Below, piece by piece: positions 2,322-12,326 of a stretch of 64,000 nt of DNA. The stretch comes from Bacteroidota bacterium (lineage in GTDB: Bacteria > Bacteroidota > Bacteroidia > Bacteroidales > FEN-979), in the NCBI GenBank assembly GCA_026391835.1, contig JAPLDF010000072.1, positions 62,001 to 126,000 of the forward strand, in the 5' to 3' direction. The notes under the pieces are model-generated. The model made no database searches and was not told the origin of the DNA. It was given only the letters and a program-made list of their open reading frames with translations. The number at the start of each line of letters is the position of its first letter. The stretch's first letter is position 1. The position numbers were made by a program, and so were the translations under genes.

Positions 2322-4064
2322 ATGAAAAGAGATGTATTGATTATTTTTTTCCTGGCGATATTTTTTGGTTCCCAGGCTCAAACCTTAACCGTATCTGTGC
2401 CAACCGTGACAGCCACTGTCGGACAGATCGTGTATATTCCCGTGAAATTGTCCGGAGCCAGCAGCAGCGGGATGCCGATCAGCGGGGCCAACATCCAGAT
2501 CACTTACGACACAGCTGTTTTACACTACGATACGCTCACCAATTTCTATTCTGCAATGCCTCAAAATCAGTGGTTTTTCGGAGGACAGCTCGGACTGGTT
2601 TCAGCGAACTGGCTCGAACCAAGTTTGAATACACTTGCAATTCCTGACAACACTGTTTTGTATGAGATCAAGTTCCACTACAAGGGAGGCAATTCACCGC
2701 TGACCTTTACCACGGTTGAGTTTACAGATGCCCAGTACAACCTGATCCCAACACTGACCGTGAACGGAGCGGTGAATGCCCCTGTCGTATTCCGGCAGGT
2801 CACATTCAAGGTCGACATGTCGAAGGAGAACATCACTTCAAGCGGGGTTCACATCGCAGGAAGCTTCAACAACTGGAATTACGCACAAACGGCCATGTCG
2901 CTTTTACCAAACAGCATTTACCAGGTCACCCTGACACTTCAGGAAAATGTGGCCTACCAGTACAGGTTCGTGAACGGCAATACAATTTCGGGCGTCGAAA
3001 CTGTACCGGCATCCTGCGGGGTAGCGAACGGGACCGGCCAGTATAACCGGCAAATTACCGTGCCCAATCATGATACTACCTACTCTGCAGTGTGTTTCAG
3101 TATGTGCAGCCACTGTCCTGCAAGTGTTTCGGTAACATTCAGGGTGGACATGCAAAATCAGACGGTTTCGCCCAACGGGGTGCATCTGTCGGGAACATTC
3201 AACAACTGGAATTATGCACAAACACTGATGACTTCGAACGGCGGAACGATTTACGAAACCACCATGACCATGGATGAAGGAACCTATATGGAATTCCGGT
3301 ATGCGAATGGCATCACTTCCCAACAGTCCGAAACCGTGCCTGCTGCCTGTTCGCTCAACGGCAACAGGTATTTTACGGTTCCGGCCCATGATACTGTGAT
3401 GACCGCTTACTGCTTTGGCAGTTGTACGGCGTGCGGCACGGTTGCACATTATTCACATGTTACCTTCAGGGTGGATCTCATCACACAGCATATCTCCCCT
3501 GATGGCGTGCATATCTCCGGCACATTCCAGGGCTGGAACCCGGCTGCAACACCGATGATCAATTCAGTGGACAGTGTGTTCTCATACACCGACAGTTTGC
3601 TGACAGGCACCTCGGTTCAGTATAAATTTGTGAACGGGAATTCCACTGCAGGTCATGAAACTGTGCCTCTTGCCTGTGCTTCGAATGGAAACAGAACCCT
3701 GCTCGTGCCAGCCAATGACACCATTCTTAACCTGGTTTGCTTTTCGCAATGCGATAGTTGTGTTCTTACGGGAATAGCTGAAGCAGGGAGAAATGATTTT
3801 GAACTCGGCCAGAACTTCCCGAATCCATGTTCCCTGGTCACAAATATCGGTTATCATATCAACCGGGAGGGTACGCTGAACCTTATGGTATACAGTCCAA
3901 TGGGCAGGGTTGTTGCGGTATTGTTCAACGGACCATGCAAACCTGGTGCCTATACCCTGGCATTTCAAACAAACAGCCTGCCTGCAGGAATATACTTCTA
4001 CAAGATGATCTTCACCGGGGAGGCTGGAACTCAGCTTCAAAGCAAAAAAATGATTATTCAATAA
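2322..4064 (+). CDS. Exported T9SS protein: cohesin-like domain plus three CBM48/AMPK-like modules
   Basis: 580 residues. Residues 1-20 are a signal peptide ending GSQAQ. Residues about 21-152 look like a cohesin fold: a strand VSVPTVTATVGQIVYIPVKL, then ANIQITYDTAVLHYD, and a late strand LYEIKFHYKGG. Three tandem modules follow at about 157-262, 268-366 and 378-476. Each opens with VTF(K/R)VD and contains GVH(I/L)(A/S)G(S/T)F, W and P/YAQT blocks, and each carries paired cysteines near its end (for example CFSQCDSC). These resemble the starch-binding/AMPK-glycogen-binding beta-sandwich class. Residues about 495-580 are a T9SS type A sorting domain (NFPNP at its start, PAGIYFYKM near its end), so the protein should cross the outer membrane and be anchored to the surface. 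It sits 9 bases after the TonB receptor. The cohesin call rests on pattern similarity and needs a profile search. Confidence 0.85.
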   Translation: MKRDVLIIFFLAIFFGSQAQTLTVSVPTVTATVGQIVYIPVKLSGASSSGMPISGANIQITYDTAVLHYDTLTNFYSAMPQNQWFFGGQLGLVSANWLEPSLNTLAIPDNTVLYEIKFHYKGGNSPLTFTTVEFTDAQYNLIPTLTVNGAVNAPVVFRQVTFKVDMSKENITSSGVHIAGSFNNWNYAQTAMSLLPNSIYQVTLTLQENVAYQYRFVNGNTISGVETVPASCGVANGTGQYNRQITVPNHDTTYSAVCFSMCSHCPASVSVTFRVDMQNQTVSPNGVHLSGTFNNWNYAQTLMTSNGGTIYETTMTMDEGTYMEFRYANGITSQQSETVPAACSLNGNRYFTVPAHDTVMTAYCFGSCTACGTVAHYSHVTFRVDLITQHISPDGVHISGTFQGWNPAATPMINSVDSVFSYTDSLLTGTSVQYKFVNGNSTAGHETVPLACASNGNRTLLVPANDTILNLVCFSQCDSCVLTGIAEAGRNDFELGQNFPNPCSLVTNIGYHINREGTLNLMVYSPMGRVVAVLFNGPCKPGAYTLAFQTNSLPAGIYFYKMIFTGEAGTQLQSKKMIIQ

Positions 4065-4102
4065 TTAAAACACATTGTCACTAACCTTAAAACAACATCA
4101 GT

Positions 4103-7100
4103 ATGAAAAGAACATTCTTTACGCTTGCCCTGCTTATCGGGGTGATTGTTACGGGTTTCGCACAGATCACCGACCCGTTTTTTGAAAAGGTAACTTACGT
4201 AGGAGCCTTTGGAAAGACAGACTGGACCCAGGGATGGGCCAACTGGACCCCGCAAACGACCGTTTATCCTGCCACCAATATCACTGTTGGCGACGGTTCA
4301 ACAACTCCTTCTGCAACCACAACGAATGTGATTACCGCCAATACGCGCTGGTCGTCGAGTAATTCACCGGTTGTCGGGGCAGCATCATTTACGAATCCGA
4401 ACCTTTCAGATCCGTTCTTTGAACAGGTCAATTATATAGGCGCTTTCGGAACATTTGACTGGACACAGGGATGGGCAAACTGGGATCCGCAAAACACGGT
4501 TTACCCAGCAACAAACGTAACCGTCAATGCAGGTCATATTACAACAAACACAACCTGGACATCAGGCAACGTTTACCTGCTTAACGGCTGGGTGTATGTT
4601 GATGCCGGTGTAACGCTGACCATCCAGGCGGGTACCGTTATCCGCGGCGACAAAACAAACAAGGCTGCGCTGATCATGGATCGCGGCTCCAAACTGATTG
4701 CCCAGGGCACTGCCTCACAGCCTATCGTTATGACCTCAAACCAGGCCATCGGTTCACGTGACCGCGGCGACTGGGGCGGACTGATCATTTGCGGTTATTC
4801 AACGGTTAACCAGCCCGGCGGAACCGCCGTTATCGAAGGCGGTGTAGGTTCCATTTACGGTGGTGGTGCAACCCCCAACAATGCTGACAATTCAGGCGTG
4901 TTTAAATATCTGCGTGTTGAATTCGCCGGATATCCATTTGCCCCCGACAATGAAATCAACGGGATCACCTTTGGCGGAGTAGGAAACGGCACAACAGTTG
5001 ATTTTGTTCAGGTATCATACAGCAATGACGATTCGTACGAATGGTTTGGCGGAACAGTGAACTGCAGGCACCTCGTCGCTTTCCGCGGAATGGATGACGA
5101 ATTTGACACGGACAATGGATTTGGCGGAAAACTCCAGTTTCTCGTGGCCCTCAGGGATCCGAATGTAGCTGACATTTCAGGTTCAAACGGATTTGAATCC
5201 GATAACGATGCCACCGGAAGCAGCAACCTTCCCATCACCCACCCGATCTTTTGCAACGTAAGTATTTTTGGGCCGCTGGTGACCCTTGCCACACCGTTCA
5301 ACTCGAACTTCAAACGTGCCATGCATATCCGCAGGAATTCCACGCTGTGTGTTTATAATTCAGTTTTTGCCGGGTTCCCCGTTGGTCTTTACATTGACGG
5401 GAACAACACCATGGCAAATGCTAACAACAACACGCTGCAGATTGAAAACTGCATCATGTCGGGCATGACGACCACTTTTGCTGTACCATCCGGACAAACC
5501 TGGAATTCCACCGACGAACAGAACTGGTACCTTGCACCAGCTCGACACAACAGCGTGCTCACCAACAATACCGACCTCAGCCTGGTTGATCCGTTCAACC
5601 TTGCTGGCCCGAATTTTACACCTGCCAAAACTGTTTATAAACTCAACGGCTGGTTGTATGTAAGAAATGGCGCCACCCTGACCATCGACCCGGGGACCAT
5701 CATACGCGGCGACAAAACAAACAAGAGTGCACTGATTATCGAGCAAGGTGCGAAACTGATCGCCAACGGAACGATAACCGAACCTATCGTGTTTACATCG
5801 AATGAAAACGCCGGAAGCCGCAACCGTGGCGACTGGGGTGGTGTGATCCTTTGCGGCCTTGCCACGGTCAACCTGCCCGGTGGTACCGGAGTAATTGAAG
5901 GTGGCGTCGGCTCTGTATTTGGTGGCGGTTTAACCCCAAATGATGCCGACAATTCCGGATCGTTAAAATATGTCCGCATCGAATTCCCCGGTTTCCCCTT
6001 TGCAGCAAATAATGAAATCAATGGTCTGACACATGGTGGTTTAGGTTCAGGAACAGCAGAAGATTTTATCCAGATTTCCTATTCTGCCGACGATTCCTAT
6101 GAATGGTTTGGGGGTACCAGCAATGCAAAACACCTGATTGCCTTTAAAGGCCAGGATGATGATTTTGATACGGATAACGGTTTTGCCGGAAAACTCCAGT
6201 TCTGCGTGAGCTTGCGTGAAAACTTTGCCGACATATCCGGTTCAAACGGGTTTGAATCTGACAACGACGCCACAGGTACATCCAATACCCCGAACACCCA
6301 GGCTACCTTTAGCAACTTCACCGTTGTAGGCCCGATGGTTACCCTTACCACCCCGGGGATCGATGTCAATTTCAAACGCGCGATGCACCTCCGCCGCAAC
6401 ACCCAGCTGAAAGTTCACAACTGCGTTTTCATGGGCTGGCCAACAGGTCTTTATATCGATGGCAACAGTACACAGGCCAATGCCGATGCCAATCTTTTAC
6501 AGGTTGAAAATACATTCATGTCGGGCATGACCACAAACTTTGATGTGCCTTCCGGACAAAACTGGACCCCGGCAACCGAACAAACCTGGTACCAGTCTTC
6601 AACCCGTCACAACAATACCTTCGTAAACAATACGGATATCCAGCTTGTTGATCCGTTCAACCTTGCCGGCCCGAACTTCCTCCCGCTGGCAACTTCACCG
6701 GTGTGGGGAGCTTCACGCTGGTCGAGAACCGTTTCCGGCCTTGTAACCTATGACAATGTTGCAGGCACCCCGATGAACGGCACAGTCCTTACCCTGAAAA
6801 CCCAGGCCGGTGCTGCCGTCGAAACTGCCACAGCTGACGCTGGCGGTAATTTCTCGATTTTTGCAATCGACGGTGTGTATGTTATTGATGCTGCCAGCCC
6901 AAAAACATGGGGCGGACTTGGCATCCAGGATGTCATCAACACACGTAAAAAAATCTCCAACCTGATCACCTTCACCCCGCTTCAGAACAAGGCCGCCGAT
7001 GTTAACCAGACAAACACTGTGAACGTACAGGATCCGATTGTCATGAGGCAGAAACTTTCGGCTCCGAATACAAATTGGCCGAACTGGAAGATCGCAAACT

Positions 7101-7210
7101 TTGTTTTTGAAAAACCGACGGTAACCGTGAATGGTTCGAACGTTGTTCAGAACATCAAAGCAATGGCCGGCGGCGATGTTAACAACAGTTTTGTTCCGGC
7201 TGCCAAGTAA
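4103..7210 (+). CDS. Exported protein with duplicated beta-helix-like modules and C-terminal dockerin-like domain
   Basis: 1035 residues with a signal peptide ending TGFAQ at residue 21. A 41-residue segment starting DPFFE(K/Q)V and containing WTQGWANW occurs at about 24-64 and again at 103-145. It is followed by two full-length modules (about 150-490 and 490-880) that share RGDKTNK(A/S)ALI, NRGDWGG, GGVGS, DDSYEWFGG and DTDNGF blocks, a known Bacteroidota exported family of unknown function. After a prealbumin-like stretch (about 890-935) comes a dockerin-like tail: a degenerate first half (GGLGIQDVINTRKK, about 937-950) and a good second half DVNQTNTVNVQD (about 965-976), fitting the D-x-N-x-x-x-x-I/V-N-x-x-D calcium loop, then GDVNNSF near the end. 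There is no ordinary T9SS type A domain after it. The neighbours on both sides encode cohesin-like domains, which suggests a binding partner. Confidence 0.85.
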   Translation: MKRTFFTLALLIGVIVTGFAQITDPFFEKVTYVGAFGKTDWTQGWANWTPQTTVYPATNITVGDGSTTPSATTTNVITANTRWSSSNSPVVGAASFTNPNLSDPFFEQVNYIGAFGTFDWTQGWANWDPQNTVYPATNVTVNAGHITTNTTWTSGNVYLLNGWVYVDAGVTLTIQAGTVIRGDKTNKAALIMDRGSKLIAQGTASQPIVMTSNQAIGSRDRGDWGGLIICGYSTVNQPGGTAVIEGGVGSIYGGGATPNNADNSGVFKYLRVEFAGYPFAPDNEINGITFGGVGNGTTVDFVQVSYSNDDSYEWFGGTVNCRHLVAFRGMDDEFDTDNGFGGKLQFLVALRDPNVADISGSNGFESDNDATGSSNLPITHPIFCNVSIFGPLVTLATPFNSNFKRAMHIRRNSTLCVYNSVFAGFPVGLYIDGNNTMANANNNTLQIENCIMSGMTTTFAVPSGQTWNSTDEQNWYLAPARHNSVLTNNTDLSLVDPFNLAGPNFTPAKTVYKLNGWLYVRNGATLTIDPGTIIRGDKTNKSALIIEQGAKLIANGTITEPIVFTSNENAGSRNRGDWGGVILCGLATVNLPGGTGVIEGGVGSVFGGGLTPNDADNSGSLKYVRIEFPGFPFAANNEINGLTHGGLGSGTAEDFIQISYSADDSYEWFGGTSNAKHLIAFKGQDDDFDTDNGFAGKLQFCVSLRENFADISGSNGFESDNDATGTSNTPNTQATFSNFTVVGPMVTLTTPGIDVNFKRAMHLRRNTQLKVHNCVFMGWPTGLYIDGNSTQANADANLLQVENTFMSGMTTNFDVPSGQNWTPATEQTWYQSSTRHNNTFVNNTDIQLVDPFNLAGPNFLPLATSPVWGASRWSRTVSGLVTYDNVAGTPMNGTVLTLKTQAGAAVETATADAGGNFSIFAIDGVYVIDAASPKTWGGLGIQDVINTRKKISNLITFTPLQNKAADVNQTNTVNVQDPIVMRQKLSAPNTNWPNWKIANFVFEKPTVTVNGSNVVQNIKAMAGGDVNNSFVPAAK

Positions 7211-7220
7211 TTCAAGTTAT

Positions 7221-7306
7221 TTTTTCACCGCGAAGGCGTAAAAACCCTAAAAAGCATACCCAATGATCATATAATTCTTAGCGTCTTTGCGTCTTTGCGG
7301 TGATTT
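7221..7306. repeat. Intergenic imperfect palindrome (ccgcgaagRcgYaaa family)
   Basis: Left arm tttcaccgcgaaggcgtaaa and right arm gcgtctttgcggtgatttt face each other across about 40 bases. The same arms recur at 22104-22190 and 40860-40986. The element lies between two exported-protein genes and could form a long hairpin that dampens read-through or protects the mRNA end. Confidence 0.8.
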
Positions 7307-7335
7307 TAAAAATTGATCAACCCCACCTAAATTCA

Positions 7336-9348
7336 ATGAAAAAAAACATGAAAAAAGTACTGATTACATTTATTGCCATTATCATTTTTGTTGCAGGACA
7401 GGCGCAGATAACAGTTACGCTGGGAAGCGCACTGCTCCGGAATCCGGGGACAGACGTTCATCTTCCCGTTTCAGTCAAAGGGTTGAACGGCCTTGCGGGT
7501 GGAAAAGGCGTGACCGGCCTTGAATTGCACATTGGGTATATCAATACCAGCCTGGTGTATGATACTACTTTGAATTTCTGCGCCCTGACACCGGTATCAC
7601 AATGGTTTTTCGGTGCGAACGGCACAGAGTACAGTACCAACTGGATTGAACCCGCCGGCAACAAACTGAATATACCTGATAATACAGTACTTTTCGACAT
7701 TGTTTATCATTACCTGGGTGGTGCAACCATACTCACTTTCGACACCGCGCGATGCCTGCTGCTTGATTCAGCCTTTAACATCATTCCCGGGGTGCATTAT
7801 GTCAACGGACAGGTAACCCCTTCACTAGGTGCAGGTGAATCGCGATGGAACGGAACCGGGCCTTGGATCACTGCTGCCAACTGGAGCAATGGCATACCCG
7901 GCGACAGCACCAATGCGATCATCGAAACCGGGGAGGCGACAGTATCCTCCAGCGCCGTTTGCAAAGCCCTTACGATCAGCCAGGGCACAATCATCAATCT
8001 TTCACCTGGTTTTTCACTGACGGCAAACAGGGATTACACAAACAACGGGAACATGAACCTCCGGTCGGATGCAACCGGCAGCGGGTCACTCATTGTTCGT
8101 GGCGCGGTTTCAGGCTCAGGTGTCAACAAATTCGACCGTTACCTTGATTTCAGTTCAGGCATGCCAAACCTGGTTTCGTCACCGGTTACTGGTGCAACAG
8201 CCGGTGTTTTTGGAAGCAACACCGTTGAAAAATATGTTGAAAGCTCTTCATCGTGGGAAACTCAGCCTTCGTCGTCGAACCTGGAAACCGGGTCCGGCTA
8301 CCGCATCAATGGTTCGGCCCCGGCAACATTCAGTTTCCAGGGCATGTTCAATTCCGGCGCGGCAACAGCCGGCGACCTCCCGTACACGGCAGGCAGCCAG
8401 GTCTCTTCAAGGGGACTCAACCTGCTCGGCAACCCTTATCCCTCCGCAATTCAGTGGGAACAGGGAAACTGGGGCAGGACAAACCTCGATTACGCGGTGT
8501 ATGTTTGGGAAGGGTATAAATTTGTGAGTTGGAACGGTTCGGTTGGTGCCCTGAAGGACGGGATCATCCCGGCCATGCAGGGTTTCTTTGTAAAAAGCAA
8601 TGCTGCCGGAGCTTCACTCACAATTCCTGCTGACGCAAGATTGCACAGTACCATGCCATTTTACAAGAATTCAGAGGCAGTATCCAATGTCATTTCAATG
8701 CAACTCGAGAACAACACAGATACGAATCATTATGATGAAGCATTTGTGCATATCCTCGACGGCTCAACGGCAGGATACGATGGCGCCCTTGATGCATGGA
8801 AACTGACAGGGAGCAGCTCTTATCCCCAAATCTATACACAGTCGGCAAACCAGGACAACCTCTCAATCAACACACAGCCAGAATTTGTTTCAGTGCCTGT
8901 TCAATTCACGGTCGGCACAGCCGGTTCGTACAAGATCATCTTTGGCGGTATCAGTTCGTTCAGCCCTTCACAGCCCCTGTTCTTCGAGGATAAGACCACC
9001 CATACGGTGATCAACATCCGGAATTCGTCTGATTTTGGGTTTTCCTCTGACGGGACAACGGAAACAGGTCGTTTTGTGCTCCATTTCCAGGAAGTTGGAA
9101 TGGAAGAACATGACGGAACAGTTTTCACGGTCTGGAGCAACGGGAATACGATACACATCTCGCCAATAACCGGGTCATTTCATGCCGACAGGGTGGATAT
9201 TTACAACCTTTCCGGTCAGCTTGTATCTTCGGCCGCAAACCTTGAACTCCCGGGCATTGTGCAACAAGATAACCTTACCGCGGGATTGTACATCATACAG
9301 ATCATAACCACGAAAGGAACCTACACCCGTAAACTTATGGTCAGGTAG
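7336..9348 (+). CDS. Exported T9SS protein with N-terminal cohesin-like domain
   Basis: 670 residues from the chosen ATG at 7336. The frame is open to 7300, but residues before MKKNMKK are not signal-like; 7348 is an alternative start. The signal peptide ends GQAQ. Residues about 25-162 match the cohesin-like domains of the neighbouring genes: TVTLGSALLRNPG, VHLPVSVKG, LELHIGY, SQWFFGAN, NIPDNTVLFDI. A long region typical of Bacteroidota surface proteins follows (W-N-G-T at about 170, repeated G-N-P-Y-P and GFFVK blocks). The last 70 or so residues have a T9SS type A pattern (VDIYNLSGQLV and a LTAGLYIIQI strand). The cohesin copy is the most divergent of the four in the window, with a G-L-A-G-G-K insertion replacing the ASASGTP loop. 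Enzymatic activity is not apparent; a structural or adhesive role is inferred. Confidence 0.85.
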   Translation: MKKNMKKVLITFIAIIIFVAGQAQITVTLGSALLRNPGTDVHLPVSVKGLNGLAGGKGVTGLELHIGYINTSLVYDTTLNFCALTPVSQWFFGANGTEYSTNWIEPAGNKLNIPDNTVLFDIVYHYLGGATILTFDTARCLLLDSAFNIIPGVHYVNGQVTPSLGAGESRWNGTGPWITAANWSNGIPGDSTNAIIETGEATVSSSAVCKALTISQGTIINLSPGFSLTANRDYTNNGNMNLRSDATGSGSLIVRGAVSGSGVNKFDRYLDFSSGMPNLVSSPVTGATAGVFGSNTVEKYVESSSSWETQPSSSNLETGSGYRINGSAPATFSFQGMFNSGAATAGDLPYTAGSQVSSRGLNLLGNPYPSAIQWEQGNWGRTNLDYAVYVWEGYKFVSWNGSVGALKDGIIPAMQGFFVKSNAAGASLTIPADARLHSTMPFYKNSEAVSNVISMQLENNTDTNHYDEAFVHILDGSTAGYDGALDAWKLTGSSSYPQIYTQSANQDNLSINTQPEFVSVPVQFTVGTAGSYKIIFGGISSFSPSQPLFFEDKTTHTVINIRNSSDFGFSSDGTTETGRFVLHFQEVGMEEHDGTVFTVWSNGNTIHISPITGSFHADRVDIYNLSGQLVSSAANLELPGIVQQDNLTAGLYIIQIITTKGTYTRKLMVR

Positions 9349-9458
9349 GAGTCTGTTCATTGCCTGAAAGAATCATACGATTTTGTGACTATGTCTTAAC
9401 GCAAATGTAAAGTCATCATAGTATTTATCATACTTCATAAAAACAAAAAAATAGCAAT

Positions 9459-12257
9459 ATGAAAAAATTACAGCTTTTATTTATTTTTCTGTTGTTGTCA
9501 TTTATCGGGAGTGCCGCGTTCAGTGCAAAGGCAAACCCGGTACCTGCAACGCCTGATCAAACAGCAACAATTGTTGCCGGGATGAGCGCGACAGACCTGG
9601 ACGGGGATGCCCCTCTTGTTACCCCGACACTTACAGGACCGGCAACGGTTTGCCTGAATGTTACCGGCAATGTATACACGACCGAAGCAGCGCAGACTTC
9701 TTATGCTTGGGTCGTTACCGGCGGCACGATCACAGCCGGCGGAAACAGCACCAGCAATACAGCCACGGTGACATGGACCGCCGTAGGTTCAAAAAGCATC
9801 AGTGTTACTTACAGCGGGGCAACAACAACCTTGCTTCCGGTAACTGTGAACCCGCTGACAAGCATTTCTGTCGCCGCTTCCGCAACGAATGTTGCGCCTG
9901 CAACACTGGTTACTTTTACAGCAACTGCGGTGAACCCGGGGCCGAATATTTCGTTTCAATGGAAAGTCAACGGCGCAGGTGTGGGAACAAACAGCAATAC
10001 TTATGCATATGCCCCCGCAAACGGCGACGCCGTTTACTGCCTGCTTACCTCCGACGGACCTTGTTTCAACAACACGTTCACGTCGAATGTTGTTACAATA
10101 ACTGTGACGATCCCCCCGGTGCTTGTTACGGTATCAACCAGGACAGCCTTCCCCGGCCAGTCTCTCCTTTTCCCTGTTAAACTGAAAGGTGCAGGCGCAT
10201 CAGGCACACCGATCAGTGCGGCTGACATACAAATAGCCTACGATCCTGCTGTCCTGCATTATGATACCATCGTGAACTTTTATGCAGGAACACCTTCAGC
10301 CCAGTGGTTTTTCTCTGGTAATTTCAACGTCGTCGCTGCCAACTGGCAGGAACCATCGCTGCTGACTGTTGCCGTTCCCGACAGCACAACCCTGTTCGAA
10401 ATAAAGTTCACCTACCTTGGCGGGACCACAACACTGCCTTTTACCGTATATGACTTTACCAATGCACAATACAACCTGATACCTGCAAATCACCTTGATG
10501 GAGGGATCAGTCCTGCTCCTGCATCCCTGACCGGCCCGGTTTCTGCATGCCAGGGTAATGGCGGGAATGTTTACACCACAGACGCATCACAAACAAACTA
10601 TTCCTGGTCGCTTACCGGGGGAACCATCACCTCAGGTGGTACTGCCAGCGACTATACTGCCACAGTGACCTGGAATACCGCGGGTACCCAGGGCATAAGT
10701 GTTTCATTCACTGGTTCATCGGTCACAACCCTTCCAGTCACTGTTGATGCGGCGCTTCCAGTTGCTGTCACCATCGCAGCGTCAGCAAATCCTGTTTGCG
10801 CAGGTTCGGCTGTCGCCTTCACAGCAACCCCGGTGAATGGAGGCCTCACACCAGTTTATCAGTGGAAGAAAAATGGCGCGAACGTTGGCACCAACAATCC
10901 GGTCTACAACTATACACCCGCCAATGCCCTGCCGGCTTTTACGGAAACAATTACCTGTACCCTGACCTCAAGTCTTGGTTGCAAAACGGGTTCACCTGCG
11001 TTGTCAAATTCAATTTTTTTACAGGTAAATCCGTATACTGCGAGCATCTCTGTTGCAGCCTCTGCAAACCCGGTAATGGCAGGAACTTCAGTTACCTATA
11101 CAGCTACAGTCGTCAACGGTGGCCCTGCCCCGGTATACCAGTGGAAAATCAATGGTGCCCCTGCAGGTACAAACAGCCCTACGCTGATTTATACCCCGGC
11201 CAATACAGATGTCATTTTCTGTTTGCTTTCTTCAAGCGCCCCGTGTGTTACCGGCGTGTATACTTCCAATGCAGTTTCCATGACCGTGAACTACCCCGTT
11301 GGCTCACTGCTCGTGACACTGCCGAATAAAACCGCCATGCCCGGTGATGTATTATACTACCCGGTAAAACTGAAAGGCGCCAGCGCTTCAGGAACGCCGG
11401 TCAGCGCCGCAAGCATCCAGATCACCTATGATCCTGCCGTATTCCATTACGATACGCTGGTGAACTTCTATGCAGGTACACCGGCCACGCAGTGGTTTTA
11501 TTCAGGGAACCTGAACACCGTTGCCGCAAACTGGCAGGAACCGGGGCTGAATACACTTGCAATTCCCGACAGCACAAAACTGTTCGAAATCAAATTCACC
11601 TATTTGGGTGGAACCGGTACGCTGCCGTTTACGGTTAATGAGTTTACAAATGCCCTGTACGACCTCATCCCTACGAATCATGTCAATGGTGGTGTGACCC
11701 AACTTGTTCCAACAAACAACGCGGTACAGAATGTGAATGTAGCCGCCAGTCATGATACCTGTTTCAGTGCGATCCAGACCATATCTGTAGCCGGTAACGG
11801 TACTATCTTTGCCGTTGCAGACGGAGGGTCAGCAACTTTTGTAGCCGGCCAGATGATCAGCTTTTTACCGGGTACTTCTGTGGTTCCGGGCGGTTACCTG
11901 CACGGATATATTACACTGAACGGACAATATTGCAACCAGCCACTGAATCCGGTTGCAAGTGCCCTGGTGAGTGAAGATAAAACCACTGCTGCTGTTCCTG
12001 AATTCGTCAACAACCAGTCGGTTCGTGTTTACCCGAATCCTACAACCGGAACATTTACCGTTGAAGTGATGGGTGACAACCAGGCGATGATGACCAGGGC
12101 TGAGATCAATAATATGAACGGGGTTAAGGTTCGCATTGAACGTTTTGATAACCTGAAAAAGCACGAATTTTCGATGCCGGAGCTTAAACCAGGCATCTAT
12201 TTTATTCATGTGTTTACCAATGAACGGTCGGAAATACTTAAGATCGTGAAACTATAA
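9459..12257 (+). CDS. Exported T9SS protein with two cohesin-like and several PKD/Ig-like domains
   Basis: 932 residues; signal peptide at 1-27. Domain order: PKD-like (about 55-130, TGPATVCLNVTGNVY), Ig-like (about 133-215), cohesin-like A (about 220-351), PKD-like (about 356-430), Ig-like (432-525), Ig-like (527-611), cohesin-like B (about 616-747), a short beta-rich linker with AGQMISFLPGTSV, and a T9SS type A domain (about 855-932, VYPNPTTGTF near its start, LKPGIYFIHV near its end). Cohesins A and B are close copies (shared IQI.YDPAV.HYDT, FYAGTP..QWF.SGN, V.AANWQEP, FEIKFTYLGG), so the block arose by internal duplication. Two cohesin copies in one large surface protein is the architecture expected of a scaffold. 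It is the last gene before a terminator. Confidence 0.87.
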   Translation: MKKLQLLFIFLLLSFIGSAAFSAKANPVPATPDQTATIVAGMSATDLDGDAPLVTPTLTGPATVCLNVTGNVYTTEAAQTSYAWVVTGGTITAGGNSTSNTATVTWTAVGSKSISVTYSGATTTLLPVTVNPLTSISVAASATNVAPATLVTFTATAVNPGPNISFQWKVNGAGVGTNSNTYAYAPANGDAVYCLLTSDGPCFNNTFTSNVVTITVTIPPVLVTVSTRTAFPGQSLLFPVKLKGAGASGTPISAADIQIAYDPAVLHYDTIVNFYAGTPSAQWFFSGNFNVVAANWQEPSLLTVAVPDSTTLFEIKFTYLGGTTTLPFTVYDFTNAQYNLIPANHLDGGISPAPASLTGPVSACQGNGGNVYTTDASQTNYSWSLTGGTITSGGTASDYTATVTWNTAGTQGISVSFTGSSVTTLPVTVDAALPVAVTIAASANPVCAGSAVAFTATPVNGGLTPVYQWKKNGANVGTNNPVYNYTPANALPAFTETITCTLTSSLGCKTGSPALSNSIFLQVNPYTASISVAASANPVMAGTSVTYTATVVNGGPAPVYQWKINGAPAGTNSPTLIYTPANTDVIFCLLSSSAPCVTGVYTSNAVSMTVNYPVGSLLVTLPNKTAMPGDVLYYPVKLKGASASGTPVSAASIQITYDPAVFHYDTLVNFYAGTPATQWFYSGNLNTVAANWQEPGLNTLAIPDSTKLFEIKFTYLGGTGTLPFTVNEFTNALYDLIPTNHVNGGVTQLVPTNNAVQNVNVAASHDTCFSAIQTISVAGNGTIFAVADGGSATFVAGQMISFLPGTSVVPGGYLHGYITLNGQYCNQPLNPVASALVSEDKTTAAVPEFVNNQSVRVYPNPTTGTFTVEVMGDNQAMMTRAEINNMNGVKVRIERFDNLKKHEFSMPELKPGIYFIHVFTNERSEILKIVKL

Positions 12258-12289: not shown

Positions 12290-12326
12290 CCCGGGTCGCG
12301 AGTGGTATCGTGGCCCGGGCTTTTTT
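12290..12326 (+). terminator. Rho-independent terminator after the cohesin gene group
   Basis: An 8-bp stem with one G-U pair (cccgggtc against ggcccggg) closes a 14-base loop and is followed at once by cttttttaa. It begins 33 bases after the stop of the last cohesin-like gene and fits transcription ending there. Confidence 0.8.

Follow-up and report, generated by a model that had tools for sequence, protein, structure and literature searches.

The window analysed here, a stretch of 64,000 nucleotides (C72:62001-126000), comes from the 5.35 Mb, 86-contig genome of a lake Bacteroidales bacterium (G000). Near its start lies a same-strand gene group in the order TonB-dependent receptor, P0001, P0002, P0003, P0004 and a strong terminator (Table 1). 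P0001, P0003 and P0004 carry cohesins and sorting domains of the type IX secretion system (T9SS). P0002 is a beta-helix protein that ends in a module resembling an X-dockerin. The receptor gene starts about 570 bases upstream of the window and stops at 2312, and P0001 begins nine bases on. The adjoining receptor, the gene order and the terminator had been described in an initial annotation of this DNA and were confirmed. Beyond that annotation are the tandem beta-helix of P0002, three CBM48/AMPK-like stretches in P0001 and the recurrence of cohesins and X-dockerins across the genome.

Table 1. Features of the gene group (positions in the window, unless a contig (C) or fetched locus (L) is named) and related peptidase genes in other genomes. 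Fractions refer to the 35 aligned X-dockerin modules.
Feature	Position	Strand	Remarks
TonB-dependent receptor, C-terminal 769 residues	3..2312	+	complete gene (960 aa) at L017:6430-9312
P0001: signal peptide, one cohesin, three CBM48/AMPK1_CBM-like stretches, T9SS type A sorting domain	2322..4064	+	
P0001 cohesin, residues 23-152	2388..2777	+	PF00963 E 2.3e-10
P0001 T9SS sorting domain	3816..4058	+	TIGR04183 26.8 bits, cut-off 23
P0002: signal peptide, two beta-helix units, C-terminal X-dockerin	4103..7210	+	
P0002 beta-helix unit 1, residues 135-507	4505..5623	+	68% identical to unit 2
P0002 beta-helix unit 2	5630..6685	+	E 1.9e-162 against unit 1
P0002 X-dockerin, residues 876-1035: predicted CnaB-like domain and dockerin	6728..7207	+	homologous to a Dockerin_1-passing module
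W-G-G-x-x-x-x-D stretch, proposed second half of loop 1 (positions 7-12 from second G)	6908..6931	+	final D 35/35, second G 30/35
P0002 complete calcium loop 2, DVNQTNTVNVQD	6998..7033	+	first D 34/35, N 29/35, last D 35/35
DVNNSF, proposed first half of loop 1, at C-terminus	7175..7192	+	D 34/35, N 30/35, S 31/35
P0003: signal peptide, divergent cohesin, T9SS sorting domain	7300..9348	+	
P0003 cohesin, modelled stretch	7399..7827	+	model, Foldseek, BLAST
P0004: PKD/Ig-like domains, two cohesins, T9SS sorting domain	9459..12257	+	
P0004 cohesin 1	10122..10514	+	PF00963 second stretch; 26.6 bits at C72:72125-72427
P0004 cohesin 2	11304..11699	+	PF00963, best stretch, residues 619-719
P0004 T9SS sorting domain	12027..12245	+	TIGR04183 40 bits, cut-off 23
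Intrinsic terminator ending the gene group	12290..12319	+	12-pair stem, 9 G-C, then CTTTTTT
C25/papain-like peptidases with X-dockerin, cohesin and T9SS domain per chain, several side by side	L072:3819-8144, L072:12509-16882, L073:1279-5718, L074:5174-8419		

The whole receptor matched Plug (E 4e-8), CarbopepD_reg_2 (E 2e-17) and TIGR01782 (E 2e-55, under the cut-off of that model). With the SusC/RagA model TIGR04056 it reached 42.8 bits (cut-off 368), and the N-terminal extension alone was matched. SusD models had no match in the four neighbour proteins P0001-P0004, so the group does not qualify as a SusCD-type polysaccharide utilisation locus (PUL). Receptor orthologues are present in all six related loci that extend as far as the receptor gene. 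The complete five-gene order is conserved in L032, L033, L034 and L084 and, up to the contig ends, in L035, L042, L083 and L085. Of five named loci with P0002 relatives of at least 73% identity, four carry the label uncultured Bacteroidales and one Draconibacterium orientale, all of them metagenome-assembled genomes.

Four cohesin-like domains on three proteins (one, one and two) had been proposed, and all four were recovered. Pfam Cohesin detected those of P0001 (41.3 bits, gathering cut-off 24.1) and, in two stretches, of P0004 (46.9 bits, E 4.2e-12). The profile check suggested by the initial annotation thus held for these two proteins and not for P0003, which had no match even at E 1. The N-terminus of P0003 shares 38% identity with the cohesin region of P0001 (BLAST, E 4.9e-24). 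Its AlphaFold2 model had a predicted local distance difference test (pLDDT) score of 79 and a predicted template modelling (TM) score of 0.75. In Foldseek, the top 41 PDB matches of the model were all cohesins or cohesin-holding chains, the best being 6kgc_A (E 1.7e-9, TM 0.80). The domain is a cohesin homologue with a predicted cohesin fold, though Pfam fails to detect it. A viral fold library yielded nothing bearing on the cluster.

P0001, P0003 and P0004 are predicted T9SS cargo, each with a signal peptide (assigned by eye) and a type A sorting domain. TIGR04183 passes its cut-off in all three, the Pfam T9SS model its own in P0004 only. Judged from orthologues, the start of P0003 is likely at 7348 or 7336. 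The PKD-like domains and the T9SS sorting domain of P0004 were confirmed by Pfam and TIGR04183. With two cohesins and a T9SS domain, P0004 may be a scaffoldin, as the initial annotation proposed from its plan. A gathering of several partners by P0004 is not supported, with only one dockerin protein in the cluster. In three P0004 orthologues (L034:15285-19952, L084:15276-20000, L085:733-7794), a choice-of-anchor I domain is inserted between the cohesins, and the L085 orthologue has an additional sub-threshold match to the CehA/McbA metallohydrolase. Together with the CBM48-like stretches of P0001, these domains show that the cohesin proteins bear changing payloads.

The C-terminal module of P0002 comprises 160 residues. 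Dockerin_1 (PF00404) had no match in the whole protein and gave the isolated dockerin core 13.5 bits (cut-off 22.9), so the profile test proposed for this module failed. The claim itself, a dockerin-like end with a calcium loop, was borne out by other comparisons, and the loop DVNQTNTVNVQD is present. The module is homologous (E 2.2e-16) to a module on contig C73, which scores 33 bits with Dockerin_1 and is over the cut-off. A profile of 35 diverse X-dockerin modules (A3) found its best PDB matches, via its N-terminal part, in CnaB/SdrD-like domains (NOMO2, E 4.4e-18; SdrD, E 7e-13). It also matched the solved dockerins 4dh2_B (E 1.1e-8) and 1ohz_B (E 2.8e-7), and positions 33-110 matched 2b59_B, the X-dockerin of a cellulosomal scaffoldin (E 1.5e-6). 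Matches to both fold types indicate that a CnaB-like domain is joined to the dockerin, the arrangement of X-dockerins. By homology to accepted dockerins, the P0002 module is predicted to be a dockerin, though it stays under the Pfam cut-off.

Dockerins bind calcium in F-hand loops, and two such loops are proposed for P0002. Loop 2 is complete; loop 1 would be complete only with a half-loop at the C-terminus. In the first F-hand, a Trp (31 of the 35 modules) occupies the place of the first half of loop 1. The half-loop at the C-terminus follows the pattern D-x-N-G-S across the modules. When scored against loop 2, with the own row left out and hexamers outside loop 2 compared, the C-terminal hexamer came top of 138-162 hexamers in 32 of 35 modules; in the remaining three it ranked third or fourth. 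Moving this hexamer before the first half-module raised the Dockerin_1 score in all five modules tried (of the 35), with the natural order at equal length as sole control. The scores rose from 13.5 to 16.9 bits in P0002, which gained least, and from 31.9 to 40.0, 30.2 to 41.3, 34.3 to 42.9 and 26.8 to 36.8 bits in the others. In the natural order the match began at profile position 8 (24 in P0002), and after the move at 1-2. The chain may thus close on itself, the C-terminus completing loop 1 in a manner resembling a circular permutation.

Cohesins and X-dockerins recur together in the genome. Pfam Cohesin had 28 matches at E <=10, spread over seven contigs; 22 of the 28 pass the cut-off. Profile A3 had six matches, each within 3.4 kb of a cohesin match, and the share of the genome within 5 kb of such a match is only 2.1%. 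The linkage probability was calculated for uniform placement and from the full set of 28 cohesin matches, including the six sub-cut-off ones. Dockerin_1 passed its cut-off five times, and four of these matches adjoin cohesins. In a cohesin tree, the grouping was largely by locus, and the four window cohesins formed one clade with their orthologues. Fourteen control genomes had Dockerin_1 matches at E 10 in nine, two over the cut-off, and Cohesin matches in two, one over the cut-off. The genome encodes T9SS components: SprA (2597 bits) and two PorU-like sortases (1325 and 1244 bits), whose full-length genes lie side by side at C41:78927-85680.

No catalytic glycoside hydrolase domain was found by Pfam scans in the X-dockerin proteins of this genome or in two further Dockerin_1 proteins (C19, C86:368246). 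Their domains are beta-helix, Kelch, SprB, PKD/HYR, BNR_assoc_N and cohesin. On the strength of these scans, a plant-fibre cellulosome was rejected for this genome. A 2850-residue SprB-repeat protein with X-dockerin and T9SS domain (C5:37121-45673; L018:121-8673) adjoins small cohesin proteins. A 2201-residue protein (L019:3802-10407) combines cohesins with an SLH domain match and RHS repeats. A third, of 2193 residues (C86:368246-368392; L025:8210-14791), has an ordinary C-terminal Dockerin_1 and a BNR_assoc_N match, with no cohesin nearby.

The strongest argument for a function of the module comes from the beta-helix family. P0002 has no Por_Secre_tail or TIGR04183 match at E 1 and no lipobox. 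The family is present in 130 of 198 genomes of the phylum. Thirty-four homologues outside the window clade were compared, namely the best loci of the beta-helix phylum search and six P0002-relative loci (L098, without a beta-helix open reading frame, is uncounted; L037-L039 are near-identical copies; L112 and L117 are without starts). Among them, a T9SS domain is present in 17 and a lipobox in 12 (ten recognised by pattern, two by eye), and five are truncated by the locus end; all 29 complete proteins thus have a T9SS signal or a lipobox. The X-dockerin is absent from all 34. No cohesin was found near them in flanks that mostly measure about 1.5 kb on each side and in some cases reach 10 kb. 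A TonB receptor lies immediately upstream of the beta-helix gene in L036 and L038-L041, the same as in the window, and the L037 contig retains the 3' part of one. An own anchor in the homologues outside, against an X-dockerin in the cohesin-flanked clade, looks like an anchor swap. The ancestral unit would have been a receptor with an anchored beta-helix protein; the window clade would have exchanged the anchor for a dockerin and gained cohesin genes with T9SS domains.

Both folds could also be ordinary rigid modules of large surface proteins such as adhesins, without specific partners, and their proximity a result of surface-gene clustering. This would suit the wide distribution of cohesins, which occur in 110 genomes of a phylum sample of 395, 63 of them without an X-dockerin match. 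The conserved calcium ligands, the linkage of all six X-dockerins to cohesins and the grouping of the cohesins largely by locus do not fit it, and among the homologues examined the cohesin-flanked clade is the only one without an own anchor. We regard this explanation as unlikely. Genomic linkage and the anchor swap make a binding of dockerin and cohesin likelier, and a linked cohesin-dockerin system is, at the level of predicted domains, well supported.

The distribution in other genomes depends on the completeness of the module. In a set of 61 genomes (own genome and relatives), the module was found in 25 and cohesins in 31; 23 genomes had both, two the module only, eight cohesins only and 28 neither. 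The module is present in 18 of the 19 genomes of the window genus. In the phylum sample, A3 matched 98 genomes, 47 of them with a Pfam cohesin. The Fisher tests of co-occurrence in both sets ignore shared ancestry. A strict phylum-wide co-occurrence of X-dockerin-like matches with cohesins was rejected, as 51 of the 98 genomes lack a Pfam cohesin. Nearly full-length modules, hand-picked among the matches listed as extending from profile position 1-2 to at least 138, occur in 13 genomes, 12 of which have a Pfam cohesin. The thirteenth, G347, has a cohesin beside each of its two modules by profile A2. G096 (match 3-150, no Pfam cohesin) falls just outside this criterion; with it, the count by Pfam would be 12 of 14. 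Of 12 genomes searched with profile A2, seven yielded cohesins; the profile missed those of G409 and G212, each with one Pfam cohesin. Nearly full-length modules go with cohesins, and partial modules need not.

One in-frame stop codon each is present in the X-dockerin matches G013:C34:4008-4478, G001:C216:7044-7514 and G021:C100:2232-2711. Genomes of family f43 (e.g., G269, G273 and G344) have several X-dockerin-like matches each, mostly without the N-terminal domain.

The position of the module within the proteins divides them into two classes. Among 59 X-dockerin genes in the fetched loci, three were open-ended and excluded, leaving 56 distinct complete reading frames in which the window genus is over-represented. 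The X-dockerin is C-terminal in 19, none of which has a T9SS domain; one to four cohesins precede it in ten of these proteins and none in nine. It is internal in 37, and 36 of them have a T9SS domain. In 32 of these 36, a cohesin is located between X-dockerin and T9SS domain. P0002 belongs to the class with C-terminal module.

This mutual exclusion of C-terminal X-dockerin and T9SS domain (19 of 19) might also mean that the X-dockerin itself is a sorting or secretion tail, which at the C-terminus replaces the T9SS domain, directs export by the T9SS or some other route and needs no cohesin. Such a tail would account for the export of P0002 and for genomes with module matches and no cohesin. It does not fit the 36 proteins that have an internal module and their own T9SS domain. 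Nor does it explain that nearly full-length modules accompany cohesins in all but one of the 13 genomes by Pfam, among the matches listed, and in G347 by profile A2. We consider a sorting tail improbable.

A cohesin directly follows most internal X-dockerins, at a median distance of 20 residues (46 cases, repeats included). Dockerin and cohesin could hence bind each other in the same polypeptide, or serve as a lock on the T9SS tail, without any chaining, and the window cluster would be a degenerate remnant. P0002 has no cohesin in cis. Moreover, the ten of 56 proteins that lack a T9SS domain and have one to four cohesins before a terminal X-dockerin look like adaptors. Pairing in cis alone seems very improbable. 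In related genomes, gingipain-like C25 and papain-like peptidases carry X-dockerin-cohesin-T9SS tails (Table 1), which suggests head-to-tail peptidase chains.

We consider it fairly probable that the cluster represents a TonB importer with a beta-helix surface partner, which is held non-covalently by a cohesin-dockerin joint to T9SS-anchored cohesins. The T9SS would export the cohesin proteins and fix them at the surface. P0002 might be carried along with a cohesin partner. Its dockerin would dock into the cohesins with calcium, and this would keep the beta-helix protein beside the receptor, where the ligand is caught. The three cohesin proteins offer four sockets and also bear CBM48-like and PKD-like domains, joined in orthologues by choice-of-anchor I domains; they may form a multivalent site. 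The X-dockerin-cohesin-T9SS tails in relatives may link other proteins, peptidases included, into chains. A wider reading is put forward more tentatively: across several families of Bacteroidota, a self-closing dockerin with a split loop could plug cargo without a T9SS signal into T9SS-anchored cohesins. This might happen already in the periplasm, the cargo leaving with its cohesin partner, and would chain the C25 and papain-like peptidases in relatives.

Several observations weigh against the assembly of receptor, beta-helix protein and cohesins proposed here. We infer the cohesin-dockerin binding from sequence, and the tie between receptor and cluster from gene order. The dockerin core of P0002 is under the Dockerin_1 cut-off, and position 9 of its loop 1 is a G, not N, T or D. 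A structure model of the X-dockerin from a four-sequence alignment had a pLDDT of 39 and was unusable. The proposal does not account for the passage of P0002, which has no T9SS domain, across the outer membrane. The fifth Dockerin_1 match of the genome (C86:368246) was not matched by A3 and is about 100 kb away from the nearest cohesin match on its contig. In the cohesin tree, sequences of C15 and C73 are mixed, and one C73 and one C5 cohesin fall outside their own locus groups. The two relatives among the 61 genomes with module and no cohesin (at 1e-4) and the 51 phylum genomes with A3 matches and no Pfam cohesin at the same threshold belong here, too. So does family f43: in 20 of its genomes, X-dockerin-like matches (partial for the most part) occur with no cohesin by Pfam; profile A2 found no cohesin in three of these genomes searched. 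Either divergent cohesins or another partner may be involved in this family.

Two leads concern the substrate. Upstream of the receptor gene lies a PhoB-like response regulator (L017:5043-5729; 212 bits, PhoB cut-off 296), and in L032, L033, L035 and L084 a gene that looks similar, by a comparison of the ends by eye, precedes the receptor. Phosphate uptake, suggested by this regulator and by the choice-of-anchor I domains of three P0004 orthologues, was kept as a lead only, as the regulator is sub-cut-off and a single literature search listed nothing relevant to it. About 3.5 kb before the receptor gene, L017:1329-2945 encodes a GH13 alpha-amylase-like protein with a match to the SusG C-terminal domain. 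Uptake of alpha-glucans, suggested by this gene and the CBM48-like domains, is likewise no more than a lead, with unrelated genes intervening.

Taken together, the observations of the initial annotation were confirmed and its interpretation was partly supported. A 'new kind of surface assembly' had been claimed. The identity of cohesins and dockerin, the T9SS signals and the TonB link are supported; given the occurrence of cohesins in 110 of 395 genomes and precedents in the accessible parts of PMC8542988, PMC6071333 and PMC7480376, the claim of novelty is not supported in full. If the joint stands in for a lipid or T9SS anchor in the partner of a TonB receptor, cohesin and dockerin modules of Bacteroidetes would have a concrete job, and surface uptake complexes could assemble by plug and socket. 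One would then have to ask by what way a protein that lacks a T9SS signal gets to the surface, and a new dockerin architecture would be at hand.

Archaeoglobus fulgidus, an archaeon, has a cohesin and a dockerin outside plant-cell-wall degradation. To our knowledge, its cohesin has no T9SS or TonB context. The non-cellulosomal cohesin of this archaeon (PDB 2xdh) was the fold match of rank 4 to the P0003 model (E 4.5e-9). The clostridial type II X-dockerin/cohesin pairs (PDB 2b59, 3kcp) share the cohesin fold and an extra beta module right before the dockerin. In contrast to them, the N-terminal F-hand of the window-type module is without the first half of the loop, which appears C-terminally, and T9SS signals take the place of SLH or sortase anchors. 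The cluster resembles SusC/SusD in having a TonB-dependent receptor beside a surface partner, which in some relatives has a lipobox; a beta-helix protein takes the place of SusD as this partner.

Cohesins in certain Bacteroidetes and dockerin-rich Bacteroidetes bins are reported in PMC6071333. For rumen Bacteroidetes, PMC7480376 describes dockerins on glycoside hydrolases, some of them within PULs, and calls their role 'not defined yet'. In the accessible parts of both papers, the dockerins are on glycoside hydrolases, domains of unknown function and CBMs; T9SS signals, a TonB/beta-helix cluster or an unusual dockerin are not described there. As far as accessible, PMC5831590 and PMC6247017 report no such cohesin or dockerin parts in other Bacteroidetes cellulose degraders, PMC10266427 has dockerin matches in a few Bacteroidota single-cell genomes, and PMC11969387 covers short and long T9SS signals and describes no cohesin. 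Titles and abstract openings, with subscription papers mostly outside the search, named neither a dockerin that is split or permuted nor a cohesin-dockerin cluster linked to TonB, which does not prove their absence.

From the accessible text, the nearest precedent appears to be the cellulosome-like complex proposed for Ca. Stygibacter of the Cloacimonadota (PMC8542988). It has a 3,755-residue cohesin scaffoldin with CBM2/CBM3 and a C-terminal domain for surface attachment, for which a T9SS review is cited there. Dockerins are on secreted enzymes, including a gingipain-like C25 peptidase. Ca. Stygibacter has one large scaffoldin, whereas the window has several smaller cohesin proteins by a TonB receptor and a beta-helix protein as dockerin partner. 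The dockerin with a C-terminal half-loop may be a further difference. Both systems have in common cohesin proteins with a C-terminal domain that is predicted to attach them to the surface, and the dockerin on a C25 peptidase recalls the C25 tails in relatives of the window genome.

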